A stretch of 42,828 nucleotides of DNA from Lachnospiraceae bacterium (GTDB lineage: Bacteria > Bacillota > Clostridia > Lachnospirales > Lachnospiraceae): positions 1 to 42,828 of the forward strand of contig JAFUGT010000148.1 of the NCBI GenBank assembly GCA_017469275.1. Direction: 5' to 3'. A model generated the notes under the pieces. That model searched no databases and was not told the DNA's origin. It saw nothing but the letters and a program-made list of their open reading frames with translations. The stretch's first letter is position 1. Every line of letters begins with the position of its first letter. A program made the translations under genes and the position numbers. This document shows positions 12,184 to 25,265 of this stretch, piece after piece.

Positions 12184-12850
12184 TGATTATCTTTTTGTCA
12201 AAAAAAGGGGAGTAACATTAAGAATTCCAATTCATGAGATACGTTATATCGAAAGTGGTGCGCATAAATTATACGTACATGTTAATGAAGACACTTATGA
12301 TTATAACGATAAAATGGAAAACGTGGCTGAACTACTTAAAGAAAGAGGATTTATAAGGTGTCACCAAAGCTACCTTGTCAACAAATCATATGTCTCAGGT
12401 ATTCGTTATGATAAACTTAAGATAGGTGATAAAGAGGTAAGGATCAGTAGAAAATACAAAGACAATGTAAAAAGTAATTTCTCGGGTGAAGATAATAGTT
12501 CAAGTGGAAAGATATATATTGCCGGAAAAGATAATAATAATAGAGGTTGCATATTATGTATCAGTGGGCCCTATACCGGAAAAAGATTTGAACTGGTTCC
12601 TGAACAGAAGATAACAATCGGTAGGGACGGGAATGTCTGTGAAATAGTGATCAATATCCCGAAAGTCTCAAGGCAGCATTTGAATATTATATATCATAAA
12701 GCTACCGATTGTTATGAGGTGACAGATATGTCTACGAACGGAACTTATATTAATAATGATATACGGCTTGAAAAGAATGAGAGATATGAGGTGGAAGCGG
12801 GAGAGACAATTGGACTCGGAGACGGAATGACAGAATTCAAATTGTTGTGA
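12161..12850 (+). CDS. LytTR DNA-binding domain fused to FHA domain
   Basis: A 229-residue protein. Residues about 8-108 are a LytTR DNA-binding domain (RGVTLRIPIHEIRYIESGAH, RGFIRCHQSYLVNKSYV, then KEVRISRKYKDNV). Residues about 120-229 are an FHA domain with its phosphothreonine-binding residues: TIGRDGN, SRQHLN and MSTNGTYIN. There is no receiver domain. The gene begins inside the kinase gene (ATGATGATG at 12161, ribosome binding site AAAGAGG about 8 bases upstream), so the two proteins should be made together. FHA domains bind phosphothreonine, so the kinase or an outer partner could control DNA binding directly. LytTR sites are usually paired 9-bp repeats. Likely targets are the neighbouring surface-protein genes, but this is inference. 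Confidence 0.9.
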   Translation: MMMTNYTDDYLFVKKRGVTLRIPIHEIRYIESGAHKLYVHVNEDTYDYNDKMENVAELLKERGFIRCHQSYLVNKSYVSGIRYDKLKIGDKEVRISRKYKDNVKSNFSGEDNSSSGKIYIAGKDNNNRGCILCISGPYTGKRFELVPEQKITIGRDGNVCEIVINIPKVSRQHLNIIYHKATDCYEVTDMSTNGTYINNDIRLEKNERYEVEAGETIGLGDGMTEFKLL

Positions 12851-15329: not shown

Positions 15330-15456
15330 GTCAATTAATTGACTAGGTAAATGAATATTCATTCATAGTTTTAGTATATACAATTATTGTATAATATGAT
15401 GATGTTGGAGCCAAAAGGTCATAACTGCTTTGTGCTTGCACAATAAGCATTATGAC
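15330..15456. promoter_or_regulatory. Cluster of palindromes upstream of the cobalamin operon
   Basis: There are three perfect palindromes: GTCAATTAATTGAC at 15330-15343, AATGAATATTCATT at 15350-15363, and TATACAAT-T-ATTGTATA at 15377-15393. A larger hairpin follows at 15418-15456 (GTCATAA, TGCTT and GTGC pairing with GCAC, AAGCA and TTATGAC). They look like operator sites or a short structured transcript. Positions are before the operon promoter at 15497. The binding protein is unknown. Confidence 0.5.
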
Positions 15457-15496
15457 TTAATGACACGCTCAAACATATAATGCCTGTTCTTTTCGG

Positions 15497-15525
15497 TTGA
15501 CATTTATTTCACCTATAGTTACAAT
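15497..15525 (+). promoter_or_regulatory. Sigma-A promoter of the cobalamin operon
   Basis: Perfect -35 TTGACA at 15497-15502, 17-bp spacer and TACAAT -10 at 15520-15525. Transcription would start near 15532 and enter the riboswitch about 100 bases later. Confidence 0.85.
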
Positions 15526-15633
15526 AGGGTTTGTAAATTTCAAAGGAATATTGCTCTGAGGATGAGTGAAACAATGTTTGTATATACGCATTTTATCCGA
15601 TATGTATCGGGAGATTTATTGTATATAACTGTG

Positions 15634-15773
15634 ATGTGGCCTCATCAGTCAGATTAGGGGGAAACCCGGTGTGAATCCGGTGCAACCGCCATTACTGTGT
15701 TAAGGTCGATATATTGAGAGTGCATTACTCTGTGATCTGATATCGTCGTGCCTTTAAGCCAGATTACCCGCAT
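15634..15773 (+). promoter_or_regulatory. Cobalamin riboswitch
   Basis: The conserved core is present in order at 15657-15699: GGGGGAAACCCGGTG, GAATCCGGTGCAACCGCC and ATTACTGTG. The B12 box AAGCCAGATTACCCGC is at 15756-15771. ATGTGG at 15634-15639 can pair with CCGCAT at 15768-15773 to close the aptamer (P1). A variable arm of about 50 bases lies between core and box. This class binds adenosylcobalamin or related corrinoids and normally lowers expression when the vitamin is abundant. It governs the genes at 16021-24238. The function of the aptamer is well established; the exact boundaries are my reading. Confidence 0.92.
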
Positions 15774-15845
15774 ATTCCGGCATTTTAGCTTTTGGGTGAA
15801 GGAAAAGCGATTAGCTCATTTCGAGGATTTCGGAATGCTTTCTTT
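15770..15845 (+). promoter_or_regulatory. Alternative hairpin overlapping riboswitch P1
   Basis: GCAT and TCCG (15770-15779, two-base bulge) can pair with CGGAATGC at 15831-15838, followed by TTTCTTT. The inner part holds GCTTTT/AAAAGC. Because GCAT is also the 3' strand of P1, this hairpin and the closed aptamer exclude each other. It may be part of the expression platform. Confidence 0.4.
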
Positions 15846-15927
15846 GCGTATGACAATTAACCATAGTGTTCTTGTATAATGAAGCATTTACACAAGAACA
15901 AGCATTGGGATTATATCATGAGTTAAG

Positions 15928-15971
15928 ATGTCGGTTTTGCAATAAACATTGCAATTAATCGGCATTTTTTA
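15928..15971 (+). terminator. Terminator of the riboswitch expression platform
   Basis: ATGTCG (15928-15933) pairs with CGGCAT (15960-15965) and TTGCAAT (15937-15943) pairs with ATTGCAA (15948-15954). A TTTTTT run follows. It sits between the aptamer and the first gene, 50 bp before its start, as expected for transcription attenuation by the vitamin. Confidence 0.8.
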
Positions 15972-16020
15972 CTTTGGACTCTTTGTTTGAATCAGGATGT
16001 GAGAAAGGCAGGTTTCTTAT

Positions 16021-16311
16021 ATGGGATTGACGAAAGCTCAATGTGTGGAAATGCTTAACAGGAAATATGAAGAGACCGGTGTGTATCCTAAGAAATCTGA
16101 TTTCTCGGAAGAAGAAGTCACTGCGGTCAAGTCGTATTTTGGACCATGGCCGAGAGCGTTAGAAGCCGCAGGAATCAAAGAGGCAAAACCCATAACAAAG
16201 AAAGAACAAAGACAGCAGAAACGTATTCTTAAGAAAAGGGCTATAAATGCTAAGCGAAAAATAATGAAAAAACAAAATGTGGCGGAGAAGAAAGGAAAGG
16301 AAGAAATATGA
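16021..16311 (+). CDS. Small protein with homing-endonuclease-associated repeat
   Basis: A 96-residue protein, first in the riboswitch operon. Residues about 5-55 match the small repeat found beside homing endonucleases and in HNH-linked proteins (EMLNRKYEETGVYPKKSDF, then SYFGPWPRALEAAGI). This repeat is a DNA-binding helical unit. The rest is a highly basic tail (KKEQRQQKRILKKRAINAKR). No nuclease motif is present. Its stop overlaps the start of the next gene (ATGA at 16308), so the two are translationally coupled. It may be a DNA-binding regulator of the operon, but this is a guess. Confidence 0.75.
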   Translation: MGLTKAQCVEMLNRKYEETGVYPKKSDFSEEEVTAVKSYFGPWPRALEAAGIKEAKPITKKEQRQQKRILKKRAINAKRKIMKKQNVAEKKGKEEI

Positions 16312-18878
16312 TTCAAACAAGAAACAAAAAGATTTTCTCCTGGGTACTGATTCTCGCAATGGTAATCAGTGTGATTGCACCCGGAAGTGCAAGCGTTGTA
16401 AATGCTGAGGAGACATATGACGGATATGTATATGTCACAATTGAGCGCTTTACTTTAGGTCAGGGCCTTGCTGCAGAGCCGAAGAAGATTGGGTATCATG
16501 AAAGTGATAGTATGGCTGATATTTTGAAAAGAGGTTATGGCGAGGATGCTATAGTTGTCACAACCAGTTCGTGGGGGTCGACATTTGCCGGTTTTGTAGA
16601 TGGAGGAGAGCCGGAAGGTTGGACGGTTAATCAAATCCCTGAGAAGATAAGAACCGGCTTATCTATAGAAGCTGATTCGGGTTATGGATATTCATATCCG
16701 GCTGTTACAGTTGAAGATATTGAAAAAAATGGAAGAACTAAGGCTGATACACTTTCTAACGGTGATTATACCGGTCAATCATCACTTATGTCATGTATAG
16801 ATAATACTGCTGATCAGAAAGGTATATTTGCTCTTACGTATGGTGAAGAAGCAGATGGCAGTCATTTTCATAATGGCTCTGTATATCGTATTGAATTTGG
16901 CATTTACCATTATAGCGATGATTTGAATATAACATGGTCACAACCTATGATTGATTTTCCCGATAAGGATGATCTTATCAGGGATATCGTTGATTATTCA
17001 GGCGATAAGGCACAGGCAGTATATAAGAATGCGGTTGCCACTTTAGAAGATTGGGATGCTACTGCAGAGGAAGTGGATAAAGCAGAAAATGCACTTGAAG
17101 CTGCCGCTAAATATGAGACAATATATAAGGACTCTCTTAAAAATCTTAAGGATGGTCTGGAAAATCCGGGTTATAAAGATGAGTGGGCTGTCTTATCAAT
17201 AACAAGAGCCGGTCTTGCTGATGATCAGTGGAAGTCTTCTTATATTGATAATGTAGCTGAGAACGTGAAGAAAATAGGGTCAAATGTTTTAGATACAACC
17301 GGATGGTCTTATGCAACAGAAAATGCAAGGGTAGTAATAGGATTAACCGCAGCAGGAGGAAATCCAACGGATGTAGCAGGTTATAATCTGTTAGAGCCGC
17401 TTGCTGATTATAAAAAGGTATCAGGTCAGGGAATAAATGGTATAATATTTGCTCTGATTGCATTGGATACGAAAAATTATGACATTCCTGAGTTGAATTC
17501 AACTGATGGAGAGCAGACAACCAGAGCAAAACTCATTAATGGGATAGTAAATGCTGAACTTAAAGATGGAGGATGGACTTACTTTGGAGATGATGCAGAT
17601 GTGGATCTGACAGGTATGGCAATTCAGGCGTTAGCACCTTATTATAAAGGAAATGAACAGGTGAAGACTGCGGTTGACCGTGGACTTGAGTATTTATCAA
17701 AGGCACAGGATAACAGTGGAGCATTTAATAATTATGCTGCAAAATTGACAAGTGATAGTACTGCACAGGTTGTATGTGCTTTGTCGGCATTGGGACAAGA
17801 TGCAGATTCTGATGAAGCGTTTGTCAAAGGTAATAACTCGGCATTAGAAGCACTGCTCTCATTTTATGACGCAGATGCGAAATCTTTTAAAGCCGGTTCT
17901 TCGGATGATGAGATTAACGCCTATTCTACATTGCAGGTATTATACGCTCTTACCGCTTATGATATGATGAACAATGGAAAGGGCAGATTGTATATGTCAA
18001 AGGATCATGAGCATGGTAAAATTGAGTTAAATGGAGCTAAAGAGTCAACATGTACTGTTGTCGGTTACACAGGGGATAAAGTGTGTGTTGAATGTGGTGC
18101 AGTTGTTGAAAAGGGAAACAATATAGACAAGAAACCTCATACTTCTGTTGAAATTCCGGCTGTTGCTGCCACAGAGACAAAAGCAGGAAAAACCGCTGGT
18201 AAGAAATGTTCGGTATGTGGCGAGATATTAGAGGCGCCAAAGGATGTTCCGGCAACAGGTAAGAAAGAAACAACAGATGTACCAAAAACCGACAAAGAAG
18301 TGTTGCCTTCAGAATATAAAGCAACAAGCACTGCGTCGTCTAATCCAACAGTAGAATACGCGGGTGCAACTGATAATAATAAGGCGGTAGTAACGATTCA
18401 GAATACGGTCAAAGACTCTAACAGTGTATCTTACAAAGTTACTAAGGTGGCTGATAATGCATTTGCCGGTAACAAGATTATTACTGATGTTACAATGGGT
18501 GAGAATATAACCGAGATCGGAGCTAATGCATTTAAGAACTGTACAAAGCTTTCCGGTATCATAATACAAAGTGACAGTATTGCTAAGATTGATGAGAGTG
18601 CCTTTGCCGGTGCCAAAGCCCTCAAGGAAGTGGACTTTTCAGAGTGTAAGCTTCAGACAATAGACAAAAATGCATTTTCAGGATGTAAGAAGCTTAAGAG
18701 TATCAAGATAAATGGTAACAAGCTTACGAAAGTCGGTAAGAACGCATTTAAGAATATCAAGAAAAATGCTAAGATAATAATTTATGCAAAGAATAAGAAA
18801 GCCTATAAGAAGGTCGTTAAACTGATTAAAAAGTCAGGTGCAAAGAAGGTAAAATACTCTTATAAGAAGAAAAAATGA
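16308..18878 (+). CDS. Secreted DUF4430-like / alpha-alpha toroid protein with LRR_5 tail
   Basis: This 856-residue exported protein has a signal peptide at residues 1-34 (VVNAEE cleavage region). Residues about 38-225 include a DUF4430-related segment (VYVTIERFTLGQGLAAEP, then EGWTVNQIP). Residues about 270-565 form alpha/alpha-toroid repeats of the prenyltransferase/squalene-cyclase type, with DGGWTYFGDDADVDLTGMAI near 418 and AQDNSGAFNNY near 466. Residues about 570-660 carry two Cys-pair modules (CVECG, CSVCG) common in surface proteins. Residues 667-856 are an LRR_5 module with a lysine-rich end. Toroid plus DUF4430 is the domain pair of intrinsic factor and transcobalamin. Under a B12 riboswitch, it is best read as a cobalamin-binding surface protein. 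Catalytic Asp-rich cyclase motifs are not seen. Function is inference. Confidence 0.85.
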   Translation: MIQTRNKKIFSWVLILAMVISVIAPGSASVVNAEETYDGYVYVTIERFTLGQGLAAEPKKIGYHESDSMADILKRGYGEDAIVVTTSSWGSTFAGFVDGGEPEGWTVNQIPEKIRTGLSIEADSGYGYSYPAVTVEDIEKNGRTKADTLSNGDYTGQSSLMSCIDNTADQKGIFALTYGEEADGSHFHNGSVYRIEFGIYHYSDDLNITWSQPMIDFPDKDDLIRDIVDYSGDKAQAVYKNAVATLEDWDATAEEVDKAENALEAAAKYETIYKDSLKNLKDGLENPGYKDEWAVLSITRAGLADDQWKSSYIDNVAENVKKIGSNVLDTTGWSYATENARVVIGLTAAGGNPTDVAGYNLLEPLADYKKVSGQGINGIIFALIALDTKNYDIPELNSTDGEQTTRAKLINGIVNAELKDGGWTYFGDDADVDLTGMAIQALAPYYKGNEQVKTAVDRGLEYLSKAQDNSGAFNNYAAKLTSDSTAQVVCALSALGQDADSDEAFVKGNNSALEALLSFYDADAKSFKAGSSDDEINAYSTLQVLYALTAYDMMNNGKGRLYMSKDHEHGKIELNGAKESTCTVVGYTGDKVCVECGAVVEKGNNIDKKPHTSVEIPAVAATETKAGKTAGKKCSVCGEILEAPKDVPATGKKETTDVPKTDKEVLPSEYKATSTASSNPTVEYAGATDNNKAVVTIQNTVKDSNSVSYKVTKVADNAFAGNKIITDVTMGENITEIGANAFKNCTKLSGIIIQSDSIAKIDESAFAGAKALKEVDFSECKLQTIDKNAFSGCKKLKSIKINGNKLTKVGKNAFKNIKKNAKIIIYAKNKKAYKKVVKLIKKSGAKKVKYSYKKKK

Positions 18879-18957
18879 GAGTAATTGCAAAACAAGCAAC
18901 AGTATTATTATGTTTCGCAATCACTTATCTATTAGAAATATAGAAGGAGGCATCCCT

Positions 18958-20181
18958 ATGAAGCAGAATAGATGGAAAAAGATTATCGGTATAATTCTGC
19001 TTGTGGGGGTGCTTGTTCTTTCTTTCTGGTATGGCGGTAACGCACCGGGATTGCAGGGTTTTTCAGTTAATTCGGATGTGAGCGACAACACAACAAATGC
19101 AGTAGGTGCGGATGTAGATAATGAGAGAACTGTCGAGAAGGATAATGGCGACAGGGACAATACACACAAAACTGAGCTTGATGACGGAAACATAATTACC
19201 GATGAAAAGGATTATCCGGAACGAACAACTAATCAAAATGCAAATCGGGATAATAATAAGCAAAATGCCAGGGAATCAAAAAAAGAGAAAAAATCAGGTC
19301 TGTTAGGGCAGATCATGATGAAGATTAAGAAGATTGGTTCTTCTAATAGATCTAAGAAAAATAATCCCCAGTTAAGCAAAAGAGCACAGAAGAACGCCAA
19401 TCGGGCAGCGGATAAAAGTATTAAGAAAAACAAGAAGAAGACAGCTCAAAATAATAAAAGTAATAAAACAGATAACAGTAATAAAAGAGACAACAGTAAT
19501 ACGTCTGATAGTAACAGTAAAAGTGAAGGCAGTGCCGCTAACGGCAATAATAAAAGTGACTACAATGCCTCGGATGGCAATAATATAGATAAAGCGCAGC
19601 AGGATAGTAAGGGAAATTCCAGGACAACAGATGATGGTTCTGATAGCAGGAAAGCAGATTCGGCTGGCGCGGAGGAAGGTAACACCCAAAAGAATTTTGC
19701 AGATAACGAAGATACAGGTGAAGATAATAGCGATAACGTGGTTGACGGCAGTACCAAAGATAATGGAGACTATCTGACCTGTACAATCTATATATCCTGT
19801 GCAAGCGTGTTAAATCATATGGATAAGTTGAGCGATGCGGCGAAGAAAGTAGTTCCGGATGACGGAGTTATACTGAATTTAACCACAGTTAAAGTTAAAA
19901 AAGATGCGACAGTATTTGATGTGCTGCAAAAGGCGGCCAGGGATAATAAGGTTCATCTGGAATATAATTTTACACCGGCCTATAAGACCTATTATATAGA
20001 AGGTATCGGCAATCTATATCAGTTTGATGCCGGTAATCTTTCCGGGTGGCTATACAGTGTAAATGATGAGTTCCCCGGAGTAGGCTGTTCAAGCTGCAAG
20101 GTCAAAGACGGAGATTGTATCAAATGGGTATACACCTGCAATTTCGGTAAAGATGTGGGTGGATATGTGTTTGATGAATAG
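18958..20181 (+). CDS. Membrane-anchored DUF4430 protein
   Basis: A 407-residue protein. I chose the ATG at 18958, which follows AGAAGGAGG, over an in-frame ATG at 18910. Residues about 7-28 (KIIGIILLVGVLVLSFWYGG) are an uncleaved signal anchor; no lipobox Cys is seen. Residues about 35-270 are a long hydrophilic Asn/Asp/Lys/Ser spacer likely to cross the cell wall. Residues about 278-407 are a DUF4430 domain (TVKVKKDATVFDVLQKAA, GNLSGWLYSVNDEFPGVGCS, then KDGDCIKWVYTCNFGKDVGG), the fold of the transcobalamin C-terminal domain. It probably hands the ligand from the secreted toroid protein to the ECF transporter. A palindromic repeat copy begins at its stop codon. Confidence 0.88.
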   Translation: MKQNRWKKIIGIILLVGVLVLSFWYGGNAPGLQGFSVNSDVSDNTTNAVGADVDNERTVEKDNGDRDNTHKTELDDGNIITDEKDYPERTTNQNANRDNNKQNARESKKEKKSGLLGQIMMKIKKIGSSNRSKKNNPQLSKRAQKNANRAADKSIKKNKKKTAQNNKSNKTDNSNKRDNSNTSDSNSKSEGSAANGNNKSDYNASDGNNIDKAQQDSKGNSRTTDDGSDSRKADSAGAEEGNTQKNFADNEDTGEDNSDNVVDGSTKDNGDYLTCTIYISCASVLNHMDKLSDAAKKVVPDDGVILNLTTVKVKKDATVFDVLQKAARDNKVHLEYNFTPAYKTYYIEGIGNLYQFDAGNLSGWLYSVNDEFPGVGCSSCKVKDGDCIKWVYTCNFGKDVGGYVFDE

Positions 20182-20263
20182 CACAAATGAAGCAACGAAG
20201 TTGCGGCATATGCGCAGGCAGATGATTTGTGGCTTGTATATGTGGAGTTTCGTGAATAGTAAC
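20182..20263. repeat. Half copy of a palindromic repeat element
   Basis: About 82 bases nearly identical to 21216-21297: CACAAAT, GCAACGAAGTTGC hairpin, CAGATGATTTGTGGCTTGTA, TATGTGGAGT and GTGAATAGTAAC. It lacks the left half of the element seen at 21105-21297. It begins at the TAG of the DUF4430 gene and lies between it and the ECF T gene. Confidence 0.85.
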
Positions 20264-20291
20264 GAATAATATGATATGCAGAGGTTATTAT

Positions 20292-21134
20292 ATGGAGCAG
20301 TATCATCCGATAATCAATATAATATATTTTGGACTTGTGATTGGGTGTAGTATGGTTTTTCTGCACCCTGTTTGTCTGTTGATAAGTATAGTGTGTGCGG
20401 CCGTGTATACCGTTATCCTGTTTGGCAGAGAAAAAGCGGTTAAGGGCTTTGCCGGAGTAGCAATTCTAATGTTTTTGACCGCTCTTATCAATCCCACCTT
20501 CTCTCATCAGGGAGTAACGGAGCTTATGGAACTCCCCGGAGGAAATATGCTTACTTTGGAATCGATTTTCTTTGGAATCGGCGCGGCGTTTATGCTTGGC
20601 TCAACTTTACTCTGGTTCAGAATTGCCGGTGAAATATTAACTGAAGATAAAATTGTGTATCTGTTTGGCAGCATTTTTCCTATTCTTGGTCTGTTGCTTT
20701 CAATGATTCTCGGTTTTATTCCTAAGATAAGGAGAAAGTATTCCGAGATAACCATGTGCAGAAATAATGGTAAAAAAACTTCATTCAGACATCATGCAGA
20801 CAATATATCCATACTGATAACCTGGATGTTAGAGGACTCTGTTGAAATGGGAAAAAGTATGAAGGGACGGGGGTATGGATTGCCCGGACGCACCAGATAC
20901 ACAGTGTTCCGGTTTACAAAAAGAGACAGGCGAATGCTTCTTTTTATGGTCCTTGCGGGAGTATATGTTATAATCGGAAGTATAAATGGAGCTTTGGAAT
21001 GGTGCTATTATCCTGTAACTATGGGTGCGGGATTGGGGCTTTATTCACTCAGTGTATATGCGATGTATGTGATGTTATGTGCATGCCCTGTTTTTGAAGA
21101 ATTTGTTACTATTCACAGTAGATATAAGTTATGA
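20292..21134 (+). CDS. ECF transporter T component (EcfT/CbiQ family)
   Basis: A 280-residue integral membrane protein with about six hydrophobic segments. The start at ATG 20292 is preferred to 20271 because GAGG lies at 20281-20284. The cytosolic coupling helix motif SMKGRGYGLPGRTRY (near residues 198-212) matches the Ala-Arg-Gly signature of ECF T subunits that contact the two ATPases. It scaffolds the ATPases and the substrate-binding S subunit; both are encoded by the next gene. The distance between them (about 240 bp) is filled by a large palindromic element. In a cobalamin-riboswitch operon it corresponds in role to CbrU of the Lactobacillus B12 transporter. Confidence 0.9.
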   Translation: MEQYHPIINIIYFGLVIGCSMVFLHPVCLLISIVCAAVYTVILFGREKAVKGFAGVAILMFLTALINPTFSHQGVTELMELPGGNMLTLESIFFGIGAAFMLGSTLLWFRIAGEILTEDKIVYLFGSIFPILGLLLSMILGFIPKIRRKYSEITMCRNNGKKTSFRHHADNISILITWMLEDSVEMGKSMKGRGYGLPGRTRYTVFRFTKRDRRMLLFMVLAGVYVIIGSINGALEWCYYPVTMGAGLGLYSLSVYAMYVMLCACPVFEEFVTIHSRYKL

Positions 21135-21297
21135 TATGTGCTTTAACATGCTTGCATGATTAAACACATATCCTAACTTATATCGAAACTGTGAAGCAGG
21201 AACTCCACATACAGCCACAAATAAAGCAACGAAGTTGCGACATATGCGTAAGCAGATGATTTGTGGCTTGTATATGTGGAGTGCTGTGAATAGTAAC
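21105..21297. repeat. Nested palindromic element (full copy)
   Basis: The outer arms GTTACTATTCACAG (21105-21118) and CTGTGAATAGTAAC (21284-21297) are perfect inverted repeats. Inside are two long hairpins. At 21121-21184, GATATAAGTTATGATATGTG pairs with its near complement around CATGC-TT-GCATG. At 21202-21282, ACTCCACATA and GCCACAAAT pair with ATTTGTGGC and TATATGTGGAGT around a GCAACGAAGTTGC mini-hairpin. The left arm includes the last codons of the ECF T gene. It has no coding capacity. It resembles a MITE- or REP-like element; the right half is repeated at 20182-20263. Confidence 0.85.
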
Positions 21298-21373
21298 AAG
21301 AATTTCGATATAGTATCAGAGAAAGAAGCAGATACGCGTGAATGTGTATTACAATGTAAATGGGAGATAAGAG

Positions 21374-24238
21374 ATGAAAGCGGTAGAGGTCAACAAACTT
21401 ACATTTTCATATAATGGATATGATAACCTTGCTCTTGACAGGGTTTCTTTTGATGTGGAGCAGGGGGAGATAATGTTGGTTATCGGAGAATCCGGATGTG
21501 GAAAGACAACACTTCTAAGGCATCTCAAGCCCTCCCATTTTCCTGTGGGGAAAATCAGTGTTTCCAGCGAGATTAACATTTTCGGTAAATCCATTGAAAA
21601 CTTATCCGATGAGGAGGCATCCTTTAAGATAGGATTTGTTGGACAACAGGTGGACGAGACTTCGGTAACGGATAAGGTGTGGCATGAACTGGCATTCGGA
21701 CTTGAGAGTATGGGCTGTGATCAGGCCTATATGCAGGCAAGAGTCGCGGAGATGACTGCATTTTTCGGATTGGAAAATATTTATCATGAAAAAATCTCCG
21801 AGCTTTCAGGCGGGCAGAAGCAGATCGTCAATCTGGCGGCAGTCATGGTCATGGAGCCTGAGATATTGATACTGGACGAACCTACCAGTCAGCTTGACCC
21901 CAATTCATCGGCGGAATTCTTTCACATGATAAGGAAGATACATGAGGAACTGGGAACCACAATTATAATAACGGAACATCGCCTGGAAGATATTCTTCCC
22001 ATTGCAGATAAAGTGATGGTGCTGCATAAGGGAAAGCAGCTTGTTATGGGAAGTCCAAGACGGGTATGTAAATTTCTGTATGAACATAAGCTGCCACTGT
22101 TCCGGTCTATGCCTGTGGCTGCGCGGATATATTGTAATGTAAGTAATGTAGAACCCCGAAATGACTCAAGGAATAATTCTTTAGGAAATACAACGGAGAA
22201 GGGGACATCGAATTATCATCTTGATTATAAAGAAATTAATAAATATGGGTTGAATGACGGTATGCCCCTTTCCGTAAATGAAGGCAGAAAATTCATAAAA
22301 GGTATATTTGATAGCAAGGATATTAGAACATTTTGGGATGAGACTGATGATAATATATTATCAGGAAAAGTATCTCCCACAGAAAAGAATGTCACACCTA
22401 AAAAAAGTCCGCATATAAAAGACAGTGCAGAGCGATTATCGAAGGGAGATAAAGAAGAAGCCGCAATAATAACAGATGAGGTATGGTTCCGATATAAAAA
22501 ATCCGGCATTGATGTGTTAAAAGCGTGTGAACTCAAAGTGCCAAAGGGAAAGATTACAGCGGTACTCGGTGGGAACGGTGCTGGTAAATCTACGTTGTTA
22601 AAATTGATAAACGGTAATATTACCCCGTATCTTGGTACTGTTAAATCCGGGAATAATACTATAGCCATGCTTCCGCAAAATCCTCAGGCTATGTTTGCGA
22701 AAAAAACTGTAAGGGAAGAACTTGAGGAAGCATATATTAATGAAATCGTGAGTAACAGTAAAGTGCGTAATTCAAATGAAAACGCAGACAAACGGAAGAA
22801 TTTGAACAGTGGTATAAATGACCGGGATGAGATGTTGTATCAGGTGGTAAAAGATTTTGATTTGTCGGAATGTCTTGGCAGACATCCTTTTGATCTGTCC
22901 GGCGGACAGATGGAGAAACTGGCTTTGGCGAAGATAGTGTTGATGGATAGAGATATTATACTGTTGGATGAGCCCGGTAAAGGTATGGACTATGCTTTTA
23001 AGGAGCGGTTAGGTGAGTTTCTTAAGAGTATGACCGATAAAGGAAAGACCATACTTTTAGTAAGTCATGATGTGGAATTTTGCGCAAAATATGCCGACTA
23101 CTGCGGAATGTTTTTTGATGGTCATATAGTTTCGTTAAATGACAGAAGAACATTTTTCCTTCAAAATGCATTTTATACAACCGCAGTAAGACGAATGACT
23201 AAAGGAATGGTTGATGCAGTTACGATTAAAGATTTGTATGATCTGCTTGGTTTGGAGGAAATAAGGTCTGCCTGTGATGACACGGATATAAAGGATACCG
23301 GAGCAGGAGATGACGGAGCGAAGGATGTCGGAACAGAAGATGACGGAGCGAAGGATACCGGAGCAGAAGATACCGGAGCGAAGGGTGCCGTGGCGGAAGA
23401 TACTGTAGCGAAGGACAGGGATGACCGCGGGGAGTCCACTGACGATAGTTTTAGGGACACAATAAGCCACTATAAAGACGGAGAAAAGAAGCCTAAGATA
23501 AGCAGCATATTGCCACCGCTGTTGTTGCTTGTGGTGATGCCATTTACTATATATGTGGGATATGCACTGCTTCATCAGAGAAAATATTATTTTATTTCAT
23601 TGATGCTGATATTAGAGGCAGTGATTGCCTTTTTTCTGAGTTTTGAAGGCAGACGTCCCCACATGAGAGACATAATGACAATTGCGGTAATGAGTGCAAT
23701 TACGGCGTTGTCGAGAGCTATGTTCTATATGGTACCTGCAGTTAAACCCATGGCGGCTCTTACTATTATATCCGGTGTGGGACTTGGCAGTGTTTCCGGT
23801 TTTGTGGTAGGAGCACTTTCGATGTTGGTTTCGGACATTTTCTTCGGTCAGGGACCTTGGACACCATGGCAGATGTTTACTATGGGATTTCTTGGATTCT
23901 TGGGAGGGGCAGTTTTCAGTAAATTCGCAAAAGGTATGATGAGCGGCAACGTGTTTGTTAAAGAGAATGGAGAAAAACGGGATAAAGAAAGGTATGTGAA
24001 AAAGGGTATTCTTTCAATCAGCATTTTAGGAGCATTATCTGTTTTATTAATATACGGTGGTATTATGAATCCGGCTTCCATACTGATGTATCAGGAAAAT
24101 GTTACGTTAGATATGCTTCTTGCAAGTTATGCTCCCGGTTTTCCGATAGATTGCATTCACGCAGGGGCAACCTTTATTTTTCTATGGTTACTTACTGAGC
24201 CGATGTTGGAGAAACTTAACAGGGTGAAGAAGAAATAA
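21374..24238 (+). CDS. Fused ECF ATPase-ATPase-S component, probable cobalamin transporter
   Basis: A 954-residue three-part fusion. ATPase 1 (residues 1-240): Walker A GESGCGKT near 38, signature LSGGQKQ, Walker B ILILDEPTS. ATPase 2 (about 370-620): Walker A GGNGAGKST with Lys405, signature LSGGQME, Walker B IILLDEPGKGMD. An acidic Gly/Ala/Asp repeat linker (about 635-690) leads to a membrane S component (about 705-950) with two extra helices followed by MTIAVMSAITALSRAMFY and the GQGPWTPWQMF stretch of the clostridial S subunits linked to cobalamin (the CD3073/CbrT-like group). ATP hydrolysis drives toppling of the S unit to import vitamin. The specificity call rests on the riboswitch and neighbours. 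Ribosome binding site is weak. Confidence 0.9.
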   Translation: MKAVEVNKLTFSYNGYDNLALDRVSFDVEQGEIMLVIGESGCGKTTLLRHLKPSHFPVGKISVSSEINIFGKSIENLSDEEASFKIGFVGQQVDETSVTDKVWHELAFGLESMGCDQAYMQARVAEMTAFFGLENIYHEKISELSGGQKQIVNLAAVMVMEPEILILDEPTSQLDPNSSAEFFHMIRKIHEELGTTIIITEHRLEDILPIADKVMVLHKGKQLVMGSPRRVCKFLYEHKLPLFRSMPVAARIYCNVSNVEPRNDSRNNSLGNTTEKGTSNYHLDYKEINKYGLNDGMPLSVNEGRKFIKGIFDSKDIRTFWDETDDNILSGKVSPTEKNVTPKKSPHIKDSAERLSKGDKEEAAIITDEVWFRYKKSGIDVLKACELKVPKGKITAVLGGNGAGKSTLLKLINGNITPYLGTVKSGNNTIAMLPQNPQAMFAKKTVREELEEAYINEIVSNSKVRNSNENADKRKNLNSGINDRDEMLYQVVKDFDLSECLGRHPFDLSGGQMEKLALAKIVLMDRDIILLDEPGKGMDYAFKERLGEFLKSMTDKGKTILLVSHDVEFCAKYADYCGMFFDGHIVSLNDRRTFFLQNAFYTTAVRRMTKGMVDAVTIKDLYDLLGLEEIRSACDDTDIKDTGAGDDGAKDVGTEDDGAKDTGAEDTGAKGAVAEDTVAKDRDDRGESTDDSFRDTISHYKDGEKKPKISSILPPLLLLVVMPFTIYVGYALLHQRKYYFISLMLILEAVIAFFLSFEGRRPHMRDIMTIAVMSAITALSRAMFYMVPAVKPMAALTIISGVGLGSVSGFVVGALSMLVSDIFFGQGPWTPWQMFTMGFLGFLGGAVFSKFAKGMMSGNVFVKENGEKRDKERYVKKGILSISILGALSVLLIYGGIMNPASILMYQENVTLDMLLASYAPGFPIDCIHAGATFIFLWLLTEPMLEKLNRVKKK
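23283..23430 (+). repeat. Degenerate short repeats in the ATPase-S linker
   Basis: Units built on GACGGAGCGAAGGAT recur about eight times with changes and encode ED-x-GAKD-x-GAE. The repeat forms a flexible acidic hinge between ATPase 2 and the membrane S component and probably varies in length between strains. Confidence 0.75.
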
Positions 24239-24368: not shown

Positions 24369-25265
24369 ATGGCATTTGTCGAATGGTTAAAAGTAGTTTT
24401 ATTAGGAATAGTTGAGGGTATTACGGAATGGCTTCCAATCAGCAGTACCGGGCATATAATTCTTGTAAATGAATTTGTACATTTAGAGCAAAGTGATGCT
24501 TTTATGGAGATGTTCGATGTGGTGATTCAGTTAGGGGCCATTCTTGCGGTTGTGGTAATCTTTTGGAATAAATTGTGGCCTTTTCATTTGAAGAAAAATG
24601 CGCCCAAAGAGAGTTGGTTCATACATCCCGCAGAGAATGGTTTCATGAAACATTTTCAGAAGTTCTGTGACAATTACTGTCATATGGATAAGATTGTCCT
24701 TTGGTTGAAGATAGCCGTGTCATGTGTTCCGGCTGCTGTTTTGGGTCTTACATTAGATGACTGGATAGATGAGCATTTCTATAATGCAACGGTAGTTGCC
24801 ATTGCTCTTATTGTATATGGTATCGTATTCATAATAATCGAAAATCGTAATGAACACAAAAAGCCCAGAGTGGCAAGTCTTGAAACTCTAAGCTTTAAAG
24901 ACGCTATTCTTATAGGTATATTTCAGGTCTTGGCGTTAATACCGGGTACTTCCAGGTCAGGCTCTACAATAATCGGTGGGATGTTGATCGGAACCTCAAG
25001 AGAGATTGCGGCAGAATTCACTTTCTTTCTGGCTATACCGATCATGTTCGGAGCAAGTCTTGTGAAGCTCCTTAAGTTCGGGTTATCATTTACCGGTACG
25101 GAGCTGACGGTTCTGATTGTTGGAATGATCGTTGCCTTTGGTGTATCGGTTCTTGCCATCAAGTTCTTAATGGGTTATATCAAGAAGCATGATTTCAAGG
25201 TGTTCGGCTGGTACAGAATAGCCCTTGGTATTCTGGTGTTGTTATATTTCTTTCTTATAAAGTGA
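24369..25265 (+). CDS. uppP: Undecaprenyl-diphosphatase UppP (BacA)
   Basis: This 298-residue membrane enzyme dephosphorylates undecaprenyl pyrophosphate so the lipid carrier can be reused for peptidoglycan and other wall polymers; it confers bacitracin tolerance. Both family signatures are present: [14 protein letters not shown] (residues about 16-29) and [10 protein letters not shown] (about 191-200), with the catalytic Glu and Arg. About eight hydrophobic helices, length slightly above the usual 270-280 because of a loop at residues 75-110. It has its own promoter and converges with the Nudix gene. Confidence 0.96.

Follow-up and report, generated by a model that had tools for sequence, protein, structure and literature searches.

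The window analyzed here, the full 42,828 nucleotides of contig JAFUGT010000148.1 (C166 of a Lachnospiraceae genome of 2.8 Mb in 182 contigs, 82.6% complete), carries an apparent operon that we propose to encode the uptake of cobamides (B12-type corrinoids) under B12 control, with a probability of roughly 0.82. The best-supported reading of the gene products, as judged from sequence comparisons, is that corrinoid would be captured at the cell surface and handed over to an energy-coupling factor (ECF) transporter of the CbrT type. Support for this prediction comes from: (i) a cobalamin riboswitch, (ii) homology of the transporter S subunit to CbrT, (iii) conservation of the gene unit, (iv) near-exclusion with the corrin synthesis gene cbiD, and (v) profile similarity to transcobalamin. 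Capture outside the cell and transfer to an ECF complex had also been inferred in a preliminary description of this DNA, whose list of parts for the operon was right except for an overlooked HNH_repeat gene and the domain order of the first secreted protein. The features of the locus are as follows:

15497-24238, plus strand: apparent operon, with promoter, riboswitch, hairpin, HNH_repeat open reading frame, two surface proteins, ECF T subunit and ATPase-ATPase-S fusion
15497-15525, plus strand: sigma-70-type promoter, TTGACA-17-TACAAT, 11 of 12 consensus matches
15620-15788, plus strand: cobalamin riboswitch aptamer, RF00174, 28.2 bits, E = 5.2e-5
15925-15968, plus strand: terminator-like hairpin and T run 3′ of the aptamer, from the fold of 15915-15985
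16021-16311, plus strand: 96-aa HNH_repeat open reading frame, first gene of the operon, PF18780, 41.7 bits
16308-18878, plus strand: secreted 856-aa protein with signal-type N-terminus (by eye), DUF4430-like beta domain, alpha/alpha toroid, linkers and LRR_5 tail
16377-17114, plus strand: N-terminal DUF4430-like beta domain and following linker, by hhalign
17115-18017, plus strand: alpha/alpha toroid domain, by profile searches
18441-18761, plus strand: LRR_5 repeat tail, PF13306, 80.1 bits
18958-20181, plus strand: protein starting with a hydrophobic segment, continuing with a long hydrophilic spacer and ending in a DUF4430 domain, by profile search and hydrophobicity
19903-20136, plus strand: DUF4430 domain, PF14478, 63.1 bits versus a cut-off of 23.8
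20271-21134, plus strand: ECF T (transmembrane coupling) subunit, by family match to CbiQ, PF02361
21374-24238, plus strand: fusion of two ECF ATPase domains and an S subunit, by Pfam and NCBIfam matches
23594-24235, plus strand: CbrT-like S subunit domain, by match to 6fnp_A

The promoter claimed earlier is present, though sites of this kind are no commoner in the region than in shuffled sequence (4 versus a shuffle mean of 4.4). The RF00174 match, whose E value refers to the 1.1 kb searched, bears out the riboswitch core and B12 box seen earlier; it lies below the gathering score of the family (31.5), yet alignment shows the core and box to be common to sites 5′ of orthologous operons. Those in six genomes (G002, G005, G014, G015, G024 and G032) pass the cut-off and those in G009, G013 and G022 do not. 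Segment 15915-15985 folds at −21.7 kcal/mol (z = −5.3), with none of 200 shuffles equally stable. The hairpin within it is absent from the output of a simple terminator scan, and it is likely to serve as the expression platform of the riboswitch. Another strong hairpin lies just 5′ of the promoter (15400-15505) and gives a sub-threshold match to the Clostridiales-1 small RNA family (24.7 bits versus a gathering score of 48, E = 0.0061).

We evaluated riboswitch linkage in two sets of relatives. The first comprises 60 genomes, the window's own and 59 relatives, with 36 of the 60 belonging to the window's family. RF00174 is present in 44 of them, above the cut-off in 41, and PF14478 in 27. For 26 of the 42 PF14478 matches, found in 20 of these 27 genomes, a same-strand RF00174 site lies at most 12 kb upstream, involving 20 of the 58 RF00174 sites; hand arithmetic from 58 sites, 12 kb, two strands and about 165 Mb puts chance linkage at about 0.2 per cent per gene. 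The second set was obtained by scanning a conserved peptide of the S-subunit profile over 84,980 species genomes, which returned at least 590 relatives; the best 80 were fetched, and removal of two duplicates left 78 distinct loci. Eighteen of these, hand-picked for upstream DNA and size, were scanned for RF00174, and four (L080, L087, L091 and L111) were set aside with the operon start cut off or near the end of the DNA. A riboswitch precedes the first gene in 13 of the 14 others, within 0.25 kb in twelve and at 1.2 kb in L085, the locus of Sporobacter termitidis. The linkage becomes 13 of 15 if L111 is counted, where 374 upstream bases, partly tRNA genes, gave no match. RF00174 matches in 32 of 40 genomes fetched through the S subunit are not mappable to loci and hence were unused for linkage, and a home-made regular expression for the riboswitch (same-strand matches in 17 of 105 loci) missed most known sites and was discarded.

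At the Blautia parvula locus (L112), a strong RF00174 site (88.3 bits, 12630-12820) lies 3′ of the operon instead of 5′. The other RF00174 site of the window genome (61.1 bits; locus L143, contig C162 of G000, minus strand, 1102-1857 and 2168-2369) lies upstream of the gene for a 251-aa protein. This protein begins in signal-type fashion and has a DUF4430-like look, but its score is only 15.0 bits. At three loci (L055 8120-9210, L056 4314-5459 and L058 8134-9037), a short DUF4430 protein stands beside a solitary S subunit with RF00174 at most 600 bases upstream of the domain; no T or ATPase match of the window's family was found in the stretches around them, and this arrangement is a minimal version of the system.

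The transporter combines two ATPase domains, a T subunit and an S subunit nearest to CbrT, a protein whose prediction reportedly goes back to Rodionov et al. in 2009. The S domain matches 6fnp_A at E = 1.9e-5 alone and at 9.4e-20 as a profile, the next relative being 4hzu_S (0.0015) in a ranking made among solved structures only. 6FNP is the vitamin B12 transporter ECF-CbrT of Lactobacillus delbrueckii, and CbrT imports cobinamide as well as cobalamin according to the available part of the source (PMC5997447), in agreement with the earlier statement that transporters of this type import B12. Chain A of 6FNP would be CbrT, as judged by its length and S-type nature. The two systems share the S subunit family and the ECF logic, but cbrT of L. 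delbrueckii is placed in an nrdJ-cbrS-cbrT-pduO cluster (PMC5997447), whereas the S subunit of the window is fused to its own two ATPases, with T and surface proteins in the same operon. Pfam and NCBIfam matches confirm the ATPase-ATPase-S fusion of the preliminary description, and its ECF T subunit was likewise recovered, through the family: 15 of the 18 aligned members (alignment A10, made up of the window's T subunit plus 17 of 90 T proteins) match CbiQ, the best at 1.2e-10. The window's T subunit is not among the 15 and is itself matched by neither Pfam nor NCBIfam. A tally of an EcfT motif (14 of 90) relied on too narrow a pattern and was not used.

For neighbor counts, 22 of the 78 distinct loci were dropped for having less than 5 kb before the S-bearing gene, and in the remaining 56 the count took in same-strand genes from 12 kb upstream to 9 kb downstream of it. 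A T gene is present in 55, DUF4430 in 50, a toroid in 45, and DUF4430 together with a toroid in 45; with the riboswitches described above, the co-occurrence of toroid, DUF4430 and S subunit under B12 riboswitches that had been suggested as a check is found. An older tally over 80 S genes takes in the duplicated loci L063 and L064 and loci fetched via DUF4430, and the 56-locus subset is preferred. Two records, L063 (labeled Bacteroidales) and L118 (labeled Alistipes), bear a Clostridia-type operon; the label of L063 looks wrong, since its gene layout matches that of G009 of the window's genus.

Of the 60 genomes, 22 contain CbiD, an enzyme family that takes part in building the corrin ring. Among the 36 family genomes, 18 carry DUF4430 only, 16 CbiD only, one both (G013) and one neither (G031) (Fisher 5.8e-8). 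The corresponding counts are 14, 16, 1 and 5 when the ECF operon replaces DUF4430 (3.9e-5), and 26, 21, 1 and 12 for DUF4430 over all 60 genomes (7.2e-7), the three values being uncorrected for kinship. CbiD, the sole synthesis gene tested, is absent from the window genome at its 82.6% completeness and in total from 18 of the 19 family genomes with DUF4430; among family genomes at least 90% complete, it is absent from 13 of 14 with DUF4430. As judged by this one gene, the bacterium of the window probably does not make B12. The presence of the B12-binding domain PF02310, which also occurs in proteins whose B12 need may differ, in 57 of the 60 genomes suggests that most of them use cobamides.

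The first secreted protein (16308-18878) is arranged as DUF4430-like beta domain, toroid and LRR_5 tail, the reverse of the order in transcobalamin, so that the toroid and DUF4430-like domains described earlier are present and their order is not as described. Secretion signals, here and below, were judged by eye and with a hydrophobicity script, with no signal-peptide predictor behind them. The N-terminal domain does not itself reach PF14478; its family profile (A9) aligns to the DUF4430 profile (A3) with an hhalign value of 99.3% (E = 8.6e-21), and PF14478 is reached at E ≤ 0.1 by 8 of 14 members of this family, though not by the domain of the window. Alignment A2 comprises the toroid of the window and 64 of the 76 toroids found, and SQHop_cyclase_C matches 61 of these 65 at E ≤ 1. 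The squalene-cyclase motif DxDD[TS] and a thioester-type motif were each found in 0 of the 65, and on this ground we dismissed an enzymatic or thioester-domain function of the toroid. The LRR_5 tail proposed earlier to retain the protein at the surface is present; the case for retention is weak, since among the loci examined only five operons besides the window's, all of its genus, have a toroid protein with such a tail, and the role is plausible at most.

The second surface protein (18958-20181) has the DUF4430 domain, N-terminal hydrophobic segment and spacer expected of the membrane-anchored protein in the preliminary description, with the segment as the putative anchor. The DUF4430 alignment (A3) contains the window's domain and 57 of 82 DUF4430 domains. 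Among 77 stand-alone DUF4430 homologues, 76 have an N-terminal hydrophobic segment, the sole exception being truncated at a contig end, and 19 show a lipobox pattern, which together indicate that the protein probably sits at the membrane. The spacer measures 34 to 300 residues across the uncut members.

Animal transcobalamin, intrinsic factor and haptocorrin combine an alpha/alpha barrel with a DUF4430-type beta domain, and we judged the relation of the operon to them by profile-profile comparison (hhalign, single pairs). Against a family of four transcobalamin, haptocorrin and intrinsic factor chains (A7), the toroid profile gives 51.5% (E = 1.5e-4) and the DUF4430 profile 76.4% (E = 2.2e-5), with the S profile as a control at 0.2%. 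A profile built on the natural fusion protein L136 (A5; six natural fusions and separate toroid or DUF4430 rows beside them, with a seventh candidate, L041, excluded) gives 94.9% (E = 4.5e-8) over 275 co-linear columns. Human transcobalamin passes PF14478 directly (25.0 versus the cut-off of 23.8). The weight of the relation is carried by the beta domain and the domain order, and these profiles show DUF4430 to be related by family to the beta domain of transcobalamin.

The L136 protein, from an uncultured Oscillospiraceae, is encoded directly before the T gene and comprises 441 aa with a lipoprotein-type start, a toroid at 49-300 and DUF4430 at 336-436, the same domain order and nearly the same length as the animal carriers. 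Its beta half is nearest to the stand-alone DUF4430 type (125 bits versus 78 for toroid-attached domains), and its alpha half is nearest to a stand-alone toroid (229 bits versus 222 for beta-attached; medians 196 and 106). The presence of one gene in place of the usual two is an argument for the two separate proteins acting as a unit. The window itself differs from the animal carriers in having beta and alpha domains on one protein and a further beta domain on another, rather than a single chain with alpha before beta. The animal carriers are soluble and work with a receptor, in place of which the window has an ECF transporter.

We propose that, at low intracellular B12, the riboswitch would allow transcription to proceed, and that the toroid and DUF4430 beta domains would either be secreted or stay attached to the membrane by a tether containing a flexible spacer. 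They would then close on the corrinoid like the alpha barrel and beta lid of transcobalamin, here as a sandwich between separate proteins, and the corrinoid would pass to the CbrT-like S subunit, with the fused ATPases and T subunit driving import. We give about even odds to the steps in which the toroid and DUF4430 proteins sandwich the ligand and hand it to the S subunit. A further suggestion, tentative and with slightly less than an even chance, is that the pair may represent a split transcobalamin: alpha barrel and beta lid on two surface proteins, the lid tethered to the membrane and closing beside a CbrT-type ECF transporter, with fusions such as L136 as the intrinsic-factor form and the animal carriers descending from such a pair.

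Several observations weigh against the proposal. On the regulatory side, the riboswitch of the window does not reach RF00174 at gathering (28.2 versus 31.5), and a scan of the whole window at gathering returned none. Seven of the 27 genomes with DUF4430 (G007, G011, G017, G020, G026, G046 and G057) are without upstream RF00174 at the threshold used, a permissive search giving weak sub-threshold sites just upstream of the operon in G011 (E = 0.85), G017 (0.062) and G020 (0.022), and Blautia parvula has no RF00174 at gathering upstream of its operon. G013 carries cbiD and the operon together, and 6 of the 56 loci fetched through the S subunit have neither DUF4430 nor toroid. On the carrier side, the best solved relatives of the toroid profile are squalene cyclases (4.5e-16), and thioester-domain proteins match it more weakly. 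Neither the toroid nor the DUF4430 nor the fusion profile retrieves a chain of transcobalamin or intrinsic factor among solved structures at E ≤ 10. PF01122 (Cobalamin_bind, the alpha barrel) has no match in the window and one, weak (0.078), among the 65 toroids, and the toroid figure of 51.5% does not by itself single out transcobalamin because no other toroid family served as control. The relation of the animal beta domain to DUF4430 stated in the preliminary description holds for transcobalamin; intrinsic factor stays under the PF14478 cut-off (18.4 versus 23.8).

The six loci devoid of both surface proteins indicate that the ECF part can work without them, and they fit an arrangement in which the ECF transporter imports B12 unaided and the task of the toroid and DUF4430 proteins is to remove the vitamin from other binders or to keep a store of it at the wall, with no direct hand-over to the S subunit. 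The LRR tail could, in that case, keep its protein away from the membrane. Such an arrangement overlaps with surface capture and hand-over; it is countered by the probable membrane location of the DUF4430 partner, as indicated by its hydrophobic N-terminus and lipobox patterns, and we consider it unlikely. Surface capture and ECF import would also be compatible with a variant in which the cargo is an incomplete corrinoid, a lower-ligand precursor (cobinamide, dimethylbenzimidazole) or a specific non-B12 cobamide: CbrT takes cobinamide besides cobalamin (PMC5997447), a B12 riboswitch does not reveal the transported species, and the authors of a 2007 study speak, in the available text, of B12 or its precursors (PMC1796856). 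The transcobalamin-type alpha and beta pair and the relation to CbrT both indicate a ligand with a corrin ring; we consider this variant improbable. That the surface proteins are adhesins, thioester or cyclase-type proteins merely sharing a B12 regulon with the transporter is very improbable, since the squalene cyclase and thioester-domain relatives of the toroid, and the resemblance of the LRR_5 tail to those of surface adhesins, are set against the lack of both motifs, the conservation of the surface genes beside T and ATPase-ATPase-S genes, and the natural fusion in L136.

Surface capture of B12 by carriers of this kind is not a new idea: it appeared as a prediction in 2007, when Burroughs, Balaji, Iyer and Aravind named the SLBB superfamily, described transcobalamin-like domains with toroids in surface proteins of low-GC Gram-positive bacteria and operons with CbiO and CbiQ in hosts usually without B12 synthesis, and proposed B12 scavenging as well as transfer of the domains to animals (available text of PMC1796856). 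A term search of that text found neither riboswitch nor S component. The window shares with these proteins an SLBB domain, here DUF4430, that is secreted or anchored as judged by hydrophobic N-termini, a toroid before or after that domain, another, paralogous SLBB protein at the surface, CbiO-like ATPase and CbiQ-like neighbors, and a host lacking a key B12 synthesis gene, as for most hosts described in 2007 (PMC1796856). It adds an LRR_5 tail, an HNH_repeat gene and fusion of the S subunit to two ATPases; the riboswitch, the CbrT-type S subunit, the cbiD comparison with its exclusion, and the split or fused arrangement are new relative to 2007. No published test of the predicted Gram-positive B12 scavengers was found in a literature search of mainly titles and abstracts, with subscription papers largely outside it. 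Given the 2007 prediction and no test found, the locus is a member of a predicted kind, for which the evidence is now stronger and independent. By description, BtuG/BtuB of Bacteroides is comparable in that a surface protein of very high B12 affinity feeds a transporter (available part of PMC6977713); BtuG is described as a beta-propeller working with BtuB, unlike the toroid and DUF4430 proteins of the window.

The HNH_repeat open reading frame sits between the riboswitch and the first secreted gene, which it overlaps by 4 bases. A homologue is found near 17 of 80 S genes (two duplicate loci counted) and in 5 of the 56-locus set. The product is a repeat protein and probably cytoplasmic. Directly 3′ of the operon, a BacA-type gene (24369-25265; PF02673, 305 bits) probably forms a separate unit.

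For numerous human gut genomes, the identification of transporters that import B12 or its precursors is described as an open problem (PMC6593275). The locus and its relatives connect what was predicted in 2007 with a riboswitch, with an ECF subunit family that has a B12-proven member, and with a lack of corrin synthesis; they also put names to compact proteins, the 441-aa L136 protein among them, that are open to purification and testing. If the proposal is true, hosts and microbes would use homologous carriers to catch B12, and it would become testable whether animal intrinsic factor and transcobalamin are of bacterial origin, as proposed in 2007.

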